From positions 1 through 28,578 of the IMG/VR virus record IMGVR_UViG_3300045912_000185: a stretch of 28,578 bases of DNA; one strand, 5' to 3'. The translations under genes and the position numbers were made by a program. The notes below the pieces were generated by a model that ran no database searches, was not told where the DNA came from, and worked only from the letters and a program-made list of their open reading frames with translations. The DNA comes from a virus. Each line of letters begins with the position of its first letter. Position 1 is the stretch's first letter. Shown here one piece after another: positions 530 to 3,979 of the stretch.

Positions 530-719
530 TTTTTGACCTCCGGTTTTTGGGGTTTGAGACCGTTGCATTTTGGGCATCCGTCCATCGTTGCATCGCCGCG
601 AAGATGGGTCTGCCAGAGCAACCAAGCCAGCACGGTTTGGTCTGCATTTGCGCCGTAACGCTTCAGAGCGCGCGCACGTACCTGTCATGCAGGAGTTTGC
701 CTTCAGGACACATCGCCAT
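508..719 (-). pseudogene. Small CPEG/CPKC cysteine protein with an apparent frameshift
   Basis: Translation starts at the ATG at 717-719 behind a strong GGGAGGTAACG ribosome site and reads MAMCPEGKLLHDRYVRAL, then meets TGA at 663-665. A second frame picks up at the same place and reads LKRYGANADQTVLAWLLWQ and onward through GCPKC to a TAA at 508-510. Joined, they make a coherent protein of about 69 residues with CPEG near the start and CPKC in the second half, a layout seen in small phage zinc-binding or hypothetical proteins. The break falls in a (GC)4 run at 668-675; removing one CG pair restores DRYVRALKRYG. It overlaps the helicase-loader gene by 17 nt. It could be a sequencing or assembly error, a slippage mutation, or recoding; no classic slippery heptamer is present. 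Confidence 0.55.
668..675. repeat. (GC)4 dinucleotide run at the frameshift point
   Basis: Eight bases of alternating GC lie exactly where the small CPxC protein changes frame. Loss or gain of one CG pair would switch the downstream 160 nt between open and closed. Such runs are prone to replication slippage and to consensus errors. Confidence 0.6.
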
Positions 720-1311
720 CGTTACCTCCCGATTGTTGTTTCTTGACCGCCTGCCCGATGGTCATTGAGCCGCTGATTTGTGCGGTAATTTCGCCCGCTT
801 GCAGTAGTCTCTCGACCGTCTGCCCAATGGTCAATGAGCCGCTGATTCGTCTGGTCGTTTCCGGGAGCATTTTCTGTTCGTTGGCGGCGCGGTCAACGAG
901 TTGCTGATAAATCTGGTCAAACCGTTTGCGCACGAACGGCAGTTGTTCGTAATCGGTGTGACAGATTTCACGCCAGCCGGTCAGGACGGCGGCTTCCTGC
1001 ACAATCGGGTCGTCAAATTCCGGCGGGTAGTATGCCCCGTAGGTTTCTGCACGCCTCATGACCAGACCCCAAGCCTCGTCAGGTAGCAAATGTGGCGTAG
1101 TTTTGAGCGAAAGTGCTTTTTCCCGTAGTTCTGCCGGCTTGGGAAACCACTTGCTTTCTGCCAGCAATTGCCAGCCGGCGGCTTGGAGTATCTGGTCGTC
1201 AATGTCTTCGAGAACGACGTGATAGACTTTGACCAGCGTTTCCGTCAGCTCGACAGAATGCACTTCGCCGAAAACTGCAAGGATTTTGGTTACGGTGTCA
1301 AGAGTTGCCAT
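703..1311 (-). CDS. Replicative helicase loader-like protein (G39P type)
   Basis: A 202-residue protein from the ATG at 1309-1311, which has GGAGGGCAAAACA in front; a longer start at 1350 lacks such a site. The first 70 residues are helical, with LDTVTKILAVFGEVHSVELT then WQLLAESKWFPKPAELREKAL. The last stretch, tryptophan-phenylalanine-proline followed by a helix, resembles the 'fPsiaEi' region of the loader/inhibitor of phage G40P helicase and other phage helicase loaders. Such proteins deliver the DnaB-type helicase to the initiator complex. The C-terminus carries a 23-residue repeat, ISGSLTIGQTVERLL then ISGSMTIGQAVKKQQ. The gene directly follows and overlaps the DnaD-type initiator by 14 nt, the classic order for such a pair. 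The family call is inference from pattern and context. Confidence 0.55.
   Translation of the reverse strand: MATLDTVTKILAVFGEVHSVELTETLVKVYHVVLEDIDDQILQAAGWQLLAESKWFPKPAELREKALSLKTTPHLLPDEAWGLVMRRAETYGAYYPPEFDDPIVQEAAVLTGWREICHTDYEQLPFVRKRFDQIYQQLVDRAANEQKMLPETTRRISGSLTIGQTVERLLQAGEITAQISGSMTIGQAVKKQQSGGNDGDVS
742..848 (-). repeat. Duplicated 69-nt segment in the helicase-loader gene
   Basis: Two near-identical stretches, 742-779 and 811-848, are offset by 69 nt, so they stay in frame with a 23-residue period. They encode ISGS(L/M)TIGQ(T/A)V twice at the C-terminus. Most differences are single substitutions, which suggests an old tandem duplication kept under selection. Confidence 0.7.
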
Positions 1312-2104
1312 TGTTTTGCCCTCCAAGAATTTTGCGAACGACTTCGGCATTTTTCTCGTGGACTTGTTGACGCTTTGACGGACGTGAATGATTGTGTTGT
1401 TTTTTGGGCGCGCGGAAACCGTTCACCTTCCAGTTTTTGAGAATGCCCTCGACATACCTCCAGTTTCGCGCGTTGGAGATTGCCGCTTCGCTGATGGCGG
1501 CGGTGACCCAATCTACGCCGTAGTCATCTACGGCGGCGATGACCTTCTCCGAAATCAAAGGCGTCATGGGCCCAATCTCTTTGTGGTATGCCTGAAATGC
1601 CTGTTGCACTTCCGGCGAAACTTGCGAATTTGCCGCGTCGTCCTTAACAACAACAACAACTTTATTAATATCTGTATTCTTAATATCTTGGTAACGATTT
1701 ATGTAACGATTCGTTACATGATTCGTTACATCTTTCGTTACATTTTCTCCTTCAGTTTTTGCATTTTCCATCGCCAATTTTTTAACATTTCGATAACGTC
1801 TCACCCGTTCGGCGGTGCTTGATGCGCGTTGGCGTTCGGCGAAATTCGTCACAACCCATCTCTCAATTTCAGGGTCAAAATGGACGATGCCGATTTCCGA
1901 CAGGCACTGGAGCTCGTGTTGCAACTGGTCGTGGTTTATGTGGAGTATCCACCCCATCTGCTGGAGAGGGGGCAAGACGCCCCCTCTCCGTTCAATGCCA
2001 GCAAGAAGGAATAGCTCCACCATGCGTCTCCAGAGTGTGTCGGACAGCACGCCGACTTTACTGTCTGTAAGGATTTCATGGTAGAGTTTTATCCAGTGCA
2101 TCAT
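1298..2104 (-). CDS. Phage replication initiator with DnaD-like domain
   Basis: A 268-residue protein. Residues 1-95 look like a winged-helix replisome-organizer domain (WIKLYHEILTDSKVGVLS, then LWRRMVELFLLAG and PLQQMGWILHI), as found in phage initiator proteins. A polar linker (about 100-160) follows. Residues about 163-230 match the DnaD/DnaB_2 pattern: VQQAFQAYHKEIGPMTPLI, then VIAAVDDYGVDWVTAAI and NWRYVEGILKNW. Such proteins bind origin repeats and recruit the helicase loader. The linker residues VTKDVTNHVTNRYINRY are encoded by copies of the same CGTTACA repeat that forms the large array at 2973-3129, as in lambda O where the origin lies within the initiator gene. The start overlaps the stop of the preceding gene (ATGA), with GGAGAG upstream. 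Confidence 0.75.
   Translation of the reverse strand: MMHWIKLYHEILTDSKVGVLSDTLWRRMVELFLLAGIERRGGVLPPLQQMGWILHINHDQLQHELQCLSEIGIVHFDPEIERWVVTNFAERQRASSTAERVRRYRNVKKLAMENAKTEGENVTKDVTNHVTNRYINRYQDIKNTDINKVVVVVKDDAANSQVSPEVQQAFQAYHKEIGPMTPLISEKVIAAVDDYGVDWVTAAISEAAISNARNWRYVEGILKNWKVNGFRAPKKQHNHSRPSKRQQVHEKNAEVVRKILGGQNNGNS
1690..1742. repeat. Internal iteron cluster within the initiator gene
   Basis: Three direct CGTTACA copies begin at 1712, 1724 and 1736, spaced exactly 12 nt. One inverted copy (TGTAACG, 1702-1708) and one imperfect inverted copy (GGTAACG, 1690-1696) sit beside them. An AT-rich stretch with TTATTAATATC and TTAATATC lies next to it at about 1655-1690 and could serve as an unwinding element. 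The same heptamer forms the large array 1.25 kb away. I infer binding sites for the initiator encoded here. Confidence 0.7.
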
Positions 2105-2376
2105 TGCGCTCTCTCCAAATATCCAATCAGGATGACGTTCTGGTTGATGAGCTCTGCGCCGGCATCCACTTGCCGTTGCAGGTATCGTTCCGCCATTTTC
2201 TGGATGATGCGCTTGAATGGATTGCGGAATTTCATCTCCTTCAGGTCATTCAGCAAGGTCAGGTTCAGCATGTACATCTCGTGCAAGTCCTGAATGGATG
2301 TACCAGATTTAGCCTGAAACAGGTAAATGATTGACAGAAGGACATATATGGGGTATCGCATAATGACGTATTTCAT
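2101..2376 (-). CDS. Small membrane-anchored protein of unknown function
   Basis: A 91-residue protein beginning MKYVIMRYPIYVLLSIIYLF. Residues 4-21 form a hydrophobic segment that would serve as an N-terminal membrane anchor or uncleaved signal. The rest is helical and charged (LNDLKEMKFRNPFKRIIQKM, then YLQRQVDAGAEL). GGAGG sits 4 nt before the ATG, inside the end of the upstream gene, and the stop overlaps the initiator start (ATGA). It therefore lies in a translationally coupled chain between a lipoprotein and the replication initiator. No family recognised. A membrane tether for replication or a superinfection-exclusion role would fit, but neither is shown. Confidence 0.6.
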   Translation of the reverse strand: MKYVIMRYPIYVLLSIIYLFQAKSGTSIQDLHEMYMLNLTLLNDLKEMKFRNPFKRIIQKMAERYLQRQVDAGAELINQNVILIGYLERAQ

Positions 2377-2864
2377 GTTTCCTCCACACGATTGACATCA
2401 ATCATCGGTGCAAGCGGGATGATGAGAGGGGTAATCAGTGACCGTGAACCGCTGGTGATGACCGCGGCACAGTACGACAAGAGAAACTGCGTCCACGTCA
2501 GCGGAACGTCATTGGGGGTGATTTTGGCAAAGCCATTCTTCTCGAGCTGGAAGATAAAATCGGCGGCAGTTTTCACGGACATTCCATTGCCATTGCCCAT
2601 CGCCGCAAGAACCTCACGCGGTTCGCCGGCTTTGGAGACCACGGCGAAGGCGTACCCGCTTCCCTGTTGCCACATATAGACCAGCAACTGTTCGCTTTGC
2701 CAGATTGCCGTTCCGACATCGCCGCGCATTGCGGCTCTCATCCCGGACAACGTGTGATAGAAGTCCACCGGTGAGATGCCGCCTTGCGTTGCGCCGAGTG
2801 GAACGCACGCGGTGTTGGACGCCAACACCATCAGAACCAAAAAGATTTGTACCAACCGTTTCAT
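2373..2864 (-). CDS. Putative lipoprotein
   Basis: A 163-residue protein starting at the ATG at 2862-2864, which follows GGAGGTAGAAACA; a longer frame reaching 2948 has no comparable site. The N-terminus MKRLVQIFLVLMVLASNTAC is a textbook signal peptide: two basic residues, a hydrophobic core, then a cysteine at residue 20. The lipobox is unusual because asparagine occupies position -3. The mature part has YHTLSGMRAAMRGDVGTAIW, a central section with alternating helix and strand, and a hydrophobic C-terminal stretch (SLITPLIIPLAPMI). No family recognised. It is the first gene after the iteron array and overlaps the next gene by 4 nt. Phage lipoproteins often block superinfection; that is inference from type, not from homology. 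Confidence 0.6.
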   Translation of the reverse strand: MKRLVQIFLVLMVLASNTACVPLGATQGGISPVDFYHTLSGMRAAMRGDVGTAIWQSEQLLVYMWQQGSGYAFAVVSKAGEPREVLAAMGNGNGMSVKTAADFIFQLEKNGFAKITPNDVPLTWTQFLLSYCAAVITSGSRSLITPLIIPLAPMIDVNRVEET

Positions 2865-3145
2865 TGTTTCTACCTCCGATTCTTTAACATTTGATTTTGT
2901 GTTTTCTTGCTGACACTGATTCGTGAAAATGGGGTGCGTTTTCTGCACATTTTGTGTTGAATGTGTGAATCATGTAACAAAACATCGTTACACATTCGTT
3001 ACATAAATCGTTACACATTCGTTACATAAATCGTTACACATTCGTTACATAAATCGTTACATTAAATGTAACGTTTCGTTACATCATTCGTTACATTAAA
3101 TGTAACGAATCGTTACATTAATCGTTACATTGTTAAGGTGCAAAA
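2865..3145. other. Non-coding region containing the probable replication origin
   Basis: About 280 nt without a gene, between the lipoprotein start and the recT terminator. The right two thirds hold the CGTTACA iteron array. The left part (2865-2970) holds only the ribosome site of the lipoprotein gene and A-rich sequence on the minus strand; I could not find a convincing -35/-10 pair. Iterons next to a DnaD-type initiator gene are the standard layout of a theta-type origin. Confidence 0.55.
2973..3129. repeat. CGTTACA iteron array
   Basis: Eleven direct copies of CGTTACA begin at 2986, 2997, 3009, 3020, 3032, 3043, 3055, 3077, 3089, 3111 and 3123. The spacing alternates 11 and 12 nt, with two 22-nt gaps. 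Inverted copies (TGTAACG) sit in those gaps at 3067-3073 and 3101-3107, and a partial inverted one at 2973-2978. The first six copies form a 23-nt higher-order unit repeated three times. Spacing near one helical turn places the sites on one face of the DNA, as in initiator-binding arrays. Confidence 0.9.
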
Positions 3146-3179
3146 AGAGTGCCACGTGAATCAAATCACGTGGCACTCT
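3142..3179 (-). terminator. Rho-independent terminator after recT
   Basis: Perfect 14-bp inverted repeat: 3146-3159 pairs with 3166-3179 around a 6-nt loop. Read on the minus strand, it begins 2 nt after the recT stop and is followed at once by TTTTT. It separates the recombination gene from the origin and replication genes. Confidence 0.9.
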
Positions 3180-3181
3180 GA

Positions 3182-3979
3182 CTATTTCTGTTCCTCACCG
3201 AACAACTGTTTGATTGCCTCTTCAGCGGTCAGGTGTACTTCCGGCTCTTCGGGAGTTGGGGTCACTTCATCGGGCGCGGGTAATTCGGCGGCAATGCGCG
3301 CGGTCAGACTTTGGCTTTCATCCTCATCACTGACATCATCGTCATCGTACAAATTCATGACCGACATGGGCCCGTATTTCAGGAGCTTGCGAAGTACAGT
3401 CTTTCGCGCCATTTCATCGAAATTTGTAGTCCAAGCACTATCCGGCATACCCCACGACTTGGAATACTTCTTGGCGTGTTCCTTCACCTCGTCTACGGTC
3501 ATATAGACTGTCTTTTCGAAGCCGTTGACGAGTTTGAAGAATCCGAAATAGCCAACGGTTTTCGTCCCTGGGCGAATACGCCGGAAATTGTGCAGACCCG
3601 TCTTGATGTCCAGCGTAATCTCCACCCCGTCATCGAGAACAGCATCGTTGATGTATCGGTATTGGTTTGTCCGCAATGCTAACTGCATTAATCCCTTGTA
3701 CCCTATTATCAGCGTGCATTTATTCTTGTACGGGACAAGGTATGCCTGTCCCGTATTCGGATTTACGGACAGTCGAAGGGTTGCGGCGTTCAGCGCGGAC
3801 GCGATGATGCTTTGTGGCTCACATTGCTGGAGACGCGGGTTCTGCGCCGCCTGTAAAAGAACATCCGCAATGTACGCATTGGCGTTTCCAGTACCAACGA
3901 TGGAGGCGAACCGTTCCCGTATCTCCAAACTGTTGGCATACTTTTTCAAAACCATTTGATTGTTCTGGTTTTCAGCCAT
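3182..3979 (-). CDS. recT: RecT-family single-strand annealing recombinase
   Basis: A 265-residue protein that matches the RecT pattern along residues 20-210: FASIVGTGNANAYIADVLL, NPRLQQCEPQSIIASALNAA, LRLSVNPNTGQAYLVPYKNK, then LIIGYKGLMQLALRTNQ, VGYFGFFKLVNGFEKTVYMT and WTTNFDEMARKTVLRKLLKY. RecT proteins coat single-stranded DNA and anneal it to complementary strands, usually with a partner exonuclease (RecE type). The C-terminal 55 residues are acidic (DDDDVSDEDES and a proline/glutamate stretch), a common feature of the family. The AAGGA before the ATG is reasonable. No exonuclease is seen beside it in this window. A hairpin terminator follows the stop immediately, so the gene forms its own short unit, possibly controlled from the palindrome upstream. 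Confidence 0.93.
   Translation of the reverse strand: MAENQNNQMVLKKYANSLEIRERFASIVGTGNANAYIADVLLQAAQNPRLQQCEPQSIIASALNAATLRLSVNPNTGQAYLVPYKNKCTLIIGYKGLMQLALRTNQYRYINDAVLDDGVEITLDIKTGLHNFRRIRPGTKTVGYFGFFKLVNGFEKTVYMTVDEVKEHAKKYSKSWGMPDSAWTTNFDEMARKTVLRKLLKYGPMSVMNLYDDDDVSDEDESQSLTARIAAELPAPDEVTPTPEEPEVHLTAEEAIKQLFGEEQK

Follow-up and report, generated by a model that had tools for sequence, protein, structure and literature searches.

CGTTACA boxes in two clusters of a viral genome fragment as probable binding sites of a DnaD-like initiator

Replication origins inside initiator genes have been described in a few phages, and their repeat sequences are unrelated. In lambda, the origin consists of iterons and an AT-rich tract in the middle of gene O (PMC7466680). 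In SPP1, one set of repeats lies in gene 38 (oriL) and one is intergenic (oriR), and both are bound by gp38; a proposed function of oriR is to block forks when replication switches to the concatemer mode (PMC6316719). Here, an intergenic array of the word CGTTACA is described in the IMG/VR record IMGVR_UViG_3300045912_000185, a viral fragment of 28,578 bases, together with a second cluster of the same word inside a DnaD-like initiator gene. The window analysed covers the whole record. With good confidence, these boxes are most likely binding sites of the phage's own DnaD-like initiator.

Two clusters of CGTTACA boxes

The exact word occurs 17 times on the two strands of the window (3.13 expected), with 13 copies at 2986-3129 and four at 1702-1742. 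The intergenic array (2986-3129) comprises eleven forward boxes, starting at 2986, 2997, 3009, 3020, 3032, 3043, 3055, 3077, 3089, 3111 and 3123, and two inverted boxes, at 3067 and 3101, with an inverted near copy, TGTTACA, carrying one mismatch at 2973-2979. When the same 157 bp were simulated 5000 times with a first-order Markov model, the top 7-mer recurred at most nine times, against 13 in the array. The array to which an earlier note on this DNA had drawn attention is therefore real, and its inverted copies do sit in the two 22-nucleotide (nt) gaps between forward boxes. That note also had all eleven copies alternating at 11 and 12 nt; the count of eleven forward boxes stands, but the alternation is confined to the first seven (11, 12, 11, 12, 11, 12), the later forward steps being 22, 12, 22 and 12. 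The alternation is largely due to a 23-bp unit, with two boxes, that stands in three exact tandem copies (2984-3052). Two 34-bp units follow (3052-3119), each arranged forward-inverted-forward and alike at 30 of 34 letters when compared by eye, and the array closes with one last pair of boxes. The mean step is about 11.5 bp, so that the boxes do not all lie on one helix face, and pairs described as close to two helical turns apart in fact span 23 bp, or some 2.2 turns of 10.5 bp each, a loose phasing.

The next densest place of the record is the in-gene cluster (1690-1742), which was absent from the earlier note. It contains exact boxes at 1702 (minus strand) and at 1712, 1724 and 1736 (plus strand), with a near copy, CGTTACC, at 1690 (minus strand), and four exact boxes were reached in 14 of 20,000 synonymous-codon shuffles of the gene. 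An inverted-forward-forward step, with 6-bp core offsets of 9 and 12, is common to this cluster and the later part of the array. AT content in 50-bp stretches across both clusters is 58-76%, the boxes themselves being AT-rich.

The host gene of this cluster (1298-2104, minus strand) encodes a 268-amino-acid protein assigned as a DnaD-like initiator or helicase loader from Pfam, phrog, a structural model and Foldseek. Its C-terminal domain matches DnaB_2 (PF07261, E = 1.2e-10) and phrog_186 (E = 8.4e-24), as is found for DnaD-like helicase loaders. Foldseek with the model returned the DnaD model 9a5c first (E = 4.5e-4) and winged helices of the MarR, GntR and MntR types at weak E-values, and phmmer matches to the protein include solved DnaD chains. 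The model, with a mean predicted local distance difference test score (pLDDT) of 74, has a winged helix at residues 9-92 approximately, a basic helix at 97-117, a disordered stretch at 121-159 and a DnaD-like domain at 164-228. The boxes correspond to codons 121-139, and the in-gene array is therefore written in the disordered linker between the winged-helix N-terminal domain (N-domain) and the DnaD domain. The codons of the basic helix, which bears the tail ERVRRYR, are at 1754-1816 (minus strand), as computed from residue numbers. Only DnaB_2 reaches the Pfam cut-off, with no direct match to Phage_rep_org_N (PF09681). A window-type N-domain profile aligns with a Phage_rep_org_N-type profile (hhalign, 104 columns, 98.5%, E = 2.7e-15), and by these profiles the window initiator is a relative of the Phage_rep_org_N initiators and not a member.

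The word in related initiator genes and its covariation with the basic tail

An N-domain alignment of seven CGTTACA-bearing initiators was used to choose the best 80 of 532 confirmed loci, of which 55 were non-redundant; 52 were left after the three seed contigs were dropped. This protein-selected sample is the test that counts, because the N-domain hidden Markov models (HMMs) used elsewhere were partly built from CGTTACA loci. In the 52 genes, the 7-mers most over-represented against synonymous-codon shuffling include AACGTTA, ACGTTAC, GCGTTAC, CGTTACA, AGTAACG and CGTTACC. At least three copies of CGTTAC are present in 38 of the 52 genes (4.75 after shuffling), and at least three of CGTKAC in 42 (7.75 after shuffling). 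Boxes are found on either strand and in varying codon phases, and 208 of the 230 CGTKAC positions fall within codons 120-159. Clusters of at least three CGTKAC are in-gene at 42 of the 52 loci and outside the gene at one (277 kb covered), this being locus L349, just upstream of the initiator start. In this family the place typical of an origin is within the initiator gene, and the window has boxes there as well.

Searches by the word itself point the same way. Among the matches listed, N-domain HMMs place the array inside or at most 78 bp from the matched open reading frame (ORF) at 35 of 119 CGTTACA loci versus one of 120 loci of the reversed word, and both orientations occur nearby at 56 of 119 versus one of 120. 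Raw abundance of the word was considered as evidence and rejected, given that triple-pattern matches in IMG/VR number at least 119 for CGTTACA, at least 120 for the reversed word and 94 for CGTGACA. The last, picked as a control, acts like a related iteron, with both orientations at 46 of 94 loci. Of the 120 listed reversed-word loci, 116 are 12+12 coding repeats, and a GNVTGNVT/GNVYGNV protein is present in 83 of the 120; the sole listed one with its array in an initiator (L248) seems to carry its own, different iteron word.

Individual loci show the association at closer range. L093 encodes a full-length homologue of the window initiator (32% identity, E = 1.7e-35) and has four exact boxes within 15 kb, where 0.28 would be expected; every one of them lies in the L093 initiator gene itself, at the place matching the window's. 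The locus was found by the word and so is not an unbiased case. In two intergenic cases that support the initiator reading, the array either follows a Phage_rep_org_N match at a distance of 7 bp (L435, E = 6.3e-8) or overlaps and adjoins another such match (L459, E = 5.3e-18). L128 has a DnaD domain in common with the window (41%) together with another N-domain and, as judged by eye, another repeated word, and would represent a natural swap in which the DnaD domain was kept while N-domain and repeats changed.

The word also varies with the protein. When genes with and without it are compared, almost every well-conserved column that loses conservation belongs to the basic stretch behind the winged helix. 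In the protein-selected sample, at least three CGTTAC are found in 33 of 37 genes whose tail reads R[VI]xx[HYFW][RK] and in 4 of 15 without this motif. RKQ-like tails (L361, L385, L418, L419) and the IRKENER tail of L421 accompany two to five CGTGAC each, and RLA[KQ]Q tails (L362, L367, L352, L386) accompany two GTCA[AT]TGAC each, so that within the Phage_rep_org_N family the tails RVxxHR, RKQ and RLAKQ go with CGTTAC, CGTGAC and GTCAATGAC, respectively. The window tail, ERVRRYR, is of the CGTTAC type, and the link recurs by alignment in the distant window-type branch (ERIRRYR in L093, ERVQRYR in L449). Among loci selected by their DNA, of window type or Phage_rep_org_N type, the RV tail is present in 17 of 26 of the CGTTACA set versus none of 13 of the CGTGACA set, some rows scored as 'other' being mislocated tails. 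A tree built from the domain with the tail left out requires 14 changes for each of the two labels, tail and word, and neither label is clustered on it; across independent supported tree pairs the labels agree in 5.5 of 8 and oppose in 0.1. We tentatively propose, with a little less than even credence, that, in phage initiators with a winged helix, the short basic helix behind it may set the iteron word in the linker of the same gene (RVxxHR with GTTAC, RKQ with GTGAC, RLAKQ with GTCAATGAC), that tail and word may be exchanged together as one cassette while the rest of the domain stays unchanged, and that the window may be a two-site instance.

A CGTKAC cluster of three was found at none of 34 Chloroflexota DnaD loci (four plus 30 of 174 matching genomes, 301 having been searched), most of which match the C-terminal domain only, and a CGTNACA cluster is absent from all eight comparison loci. 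The open-access literature, at the level of abstracts, yielded no paper describing the word or the origins of this initiator family.

Proposed roles of the two clusters and competing explanations

The explanation that accounts best for these observations, which we consider probable, if less firmly so than the binding as such, is that the phage's own initiator binds both clusters. The winged-helix N-domain and the basic helix would read the box through its GTTAC core, the spacing of boxes at 11-12 bp or their face-to-face orientation would allow several initiators to line up next to one another, and the C-terminal DnaD domain would help helicase loading where the DNA opens at the adjoining AT-rich stretch. 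The in-gene cluster would be an origin of the lambda-O or SPP1-oriL type. The intergenic array would be a larger, higher-occupancy second site for the initiator; it might fire as the main or as a second origin, like SPP1 oriR, and may also repress the initiator's own operon. Of the dedicated initiator-binding origin suggested in the earlier note, the initiator-binding sites are upheld by homology, enrichment in the protein-selected sample and covariation; the intergenic site as a dedicated origin is not. GC skew is about zero up to 3 kb and negative beyond, and it cannot decide the place of the origin because the record is a 28.6-kb fragment.

The genes near the array are all on the minus strand, in the order recT, terminator, array and packed ORFs, and a beta-clamp-like gene begins at the record edge. 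A RecT-family annealing protein (3182-3979; family match, E = 3.3e-43) lies on one side, and its terminator, a 14-bp hairpin with a T-run on the minus strand (3146-3179, z = -6.4), is immediately upstream of the array. The initiator operon lies on the other side. The start of the initiator gene, at 2104, is some 0.87 kb from the array, and the 1.25 kb quoted for it in the earlier note fits the distance to the in-gene boxes instead. The operon begins with a probable small lipoprotein gene (2373-2864, minus strand), for which, on inspection, an ATG at 2864 behind GGAGG is favoured over a GTG at 2948, and continues with a 91-amino-acid ORF (2101-2376, minus strand) that overlaps both neighbours by a few bases. 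The gene after the initiator (703-1350, minus strand) overlaps the initiator gene and has phrog_9804 as a weak, P-like helicase-loader match (E = 0.0037). Family scans, made on ten window proteins, gave no convincing family for the lipoprotein and none for the 91-amino-acid ORF. A search by capsid protein found no close relatives of the window phage, and one ORF of 3899 amino acids (28567-16868, minus strand), upstream of the capsid region, takes up about 41% of the fragment.

Since the array stands at the head of a closely spaced operon in which the initiator is encoded, an autoregulatory operator fits as well as an oriR-like second site, and for the intergenic array these are close rivals that can both hold. 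That it is mainly an operator, at which the initiator or another phage regulator turns the operon down while the in-gene boxes are the sole starting point of replication, seems unlikely, albeit with appreciable weight. The array sits in the sole long gap upstream of the four overlapping ORFs, right after the recT terminator; in L349, three perfect TGTAACGTTACA palindromes (2942-2990) lie 17-59 bp upstream of the initiator start in addition to in-gene boxes and may be an autoregulation site; and 29 records have in-gene boxes alone. Yet thirteen boxes over 144 bp exceed the needs of a simple operator, and a promoter resembling the sigma-70 consensus, which may not be that of the host, did not turn up on the minus strand between 1500 and 3400. 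Binding of the array by a host response regulator of the OmpR/PhoB type and WalR kind is improbable: WalR-type operators follow the pattern TGTWAH-N5-TGTWAH, a pattern compatible with the 11-bp steps but with neither the 12-bp steps nor the inverted boxes, and the boxes lie within initiator genes and covary with the initiator tail.

Two further roles are very improbable. A partition centromere for a ribbon-helix-helix (RHH) or ParB-like protein is suggested by L432, where five boxes at 11, 12, 11 and 12 lie between the gene for a KGGVGKS-motif protein and that for an RHH protein, behind which comes a TrwC relaxase; none of the ten scanned window proteins, however, is a partition protein. A packaging signal of the pac or cos region, to which we give equally little credence, would fit the similar arrays that adjoin terminase genes in L009, L020, L022 and L048, but the array's neighbours in the window are recT and the replication operon, with no terminase identified nearby among the ten proteins scanned.

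Several observations weigh against the explanation preferred here. Intergenic CGTTACA arrays adjoin terminase genes (the L009 group and the three other loci just named), so the word alone is not diagnostic, and further arrays stand beside primases (L013, L053) and a regulator (L081). No CGTKACA cluster was found with any of 16 RecT relatives, the Phage_rep_org_N initiators of CHPC642 and Taranis use other words, and L491, whose protein is similar by eye, is without the word. Among other records, none of the 29 that have an in-gene array showed a second remote one (30 searched, 29 matched; many are fragments), and the second site is therefore unusual, box pairs in those records being confined to one place. 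The rows in which the RV motif came to notice are also those of its first test, which is therefore not independent; support from tree pairs is marginal (median p = 0.06, or 0.03 the other way round); and because tail and linker adjoin in the gene, exchange of a cassette could yield covariation without any recognition.

The word was also encountered in other settings. Fourteen related phages (L009, L026, L028, L029, L033, L038, L058, L061, L063, L069, L074, L077, L078 and L086) have an intergenic array of five to nine boxes, which in the annotated representative, L009, adjoins a terminase-large-subunit-like gene. In a Selenomonadales metagenome-assembled genome (MAG), about 20 boxes occupy 255 bp (L443, 2539-2793) after an unassigned gene for a 489-amino-acid protein, with an AbiEii-type gene on the other side. 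Of the 46 matches to the 11-nt pattern in genomes, 13 come from a single Pedosphaera MAG (L424, L429, L438, L439, L444, L445, L448, L450, L461-L463, L467 and L468), in which a dispersed repeat of the 9/41/11/11/20-type layout is found on many scaffolds.

Comparison with known phage origins

If a short initiator tail does set the word, the origins of many uncultured phages could become predictable from protein sequence, and the proposed recognition is open to simple binding assays. Among described systems, SPP1 resembles the window in having an in-gene and a second, non-coding repeat cluster, and has direct repeats with an AT-rich region (PMC6316719). Its two sites are about 13 kb apart, compared with about 1.25 kb in the window, and the likeness is one of layout. 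Like lambda, the window has boxes midway through its initiator gene. Lambda iterons differ in sequence from CGTTACA. Each of them is an inverted repeat (PMC7466680), whereas the boxes of the window are 7 bp long and form an intergenic array besides the in-gene cluster. The lactococcal phage r1t and the Bacillus phage Palmer, like the window, have 11-nt repeats in the initiator gene, with words of their own, of the GGAACC and AACAAGC types.
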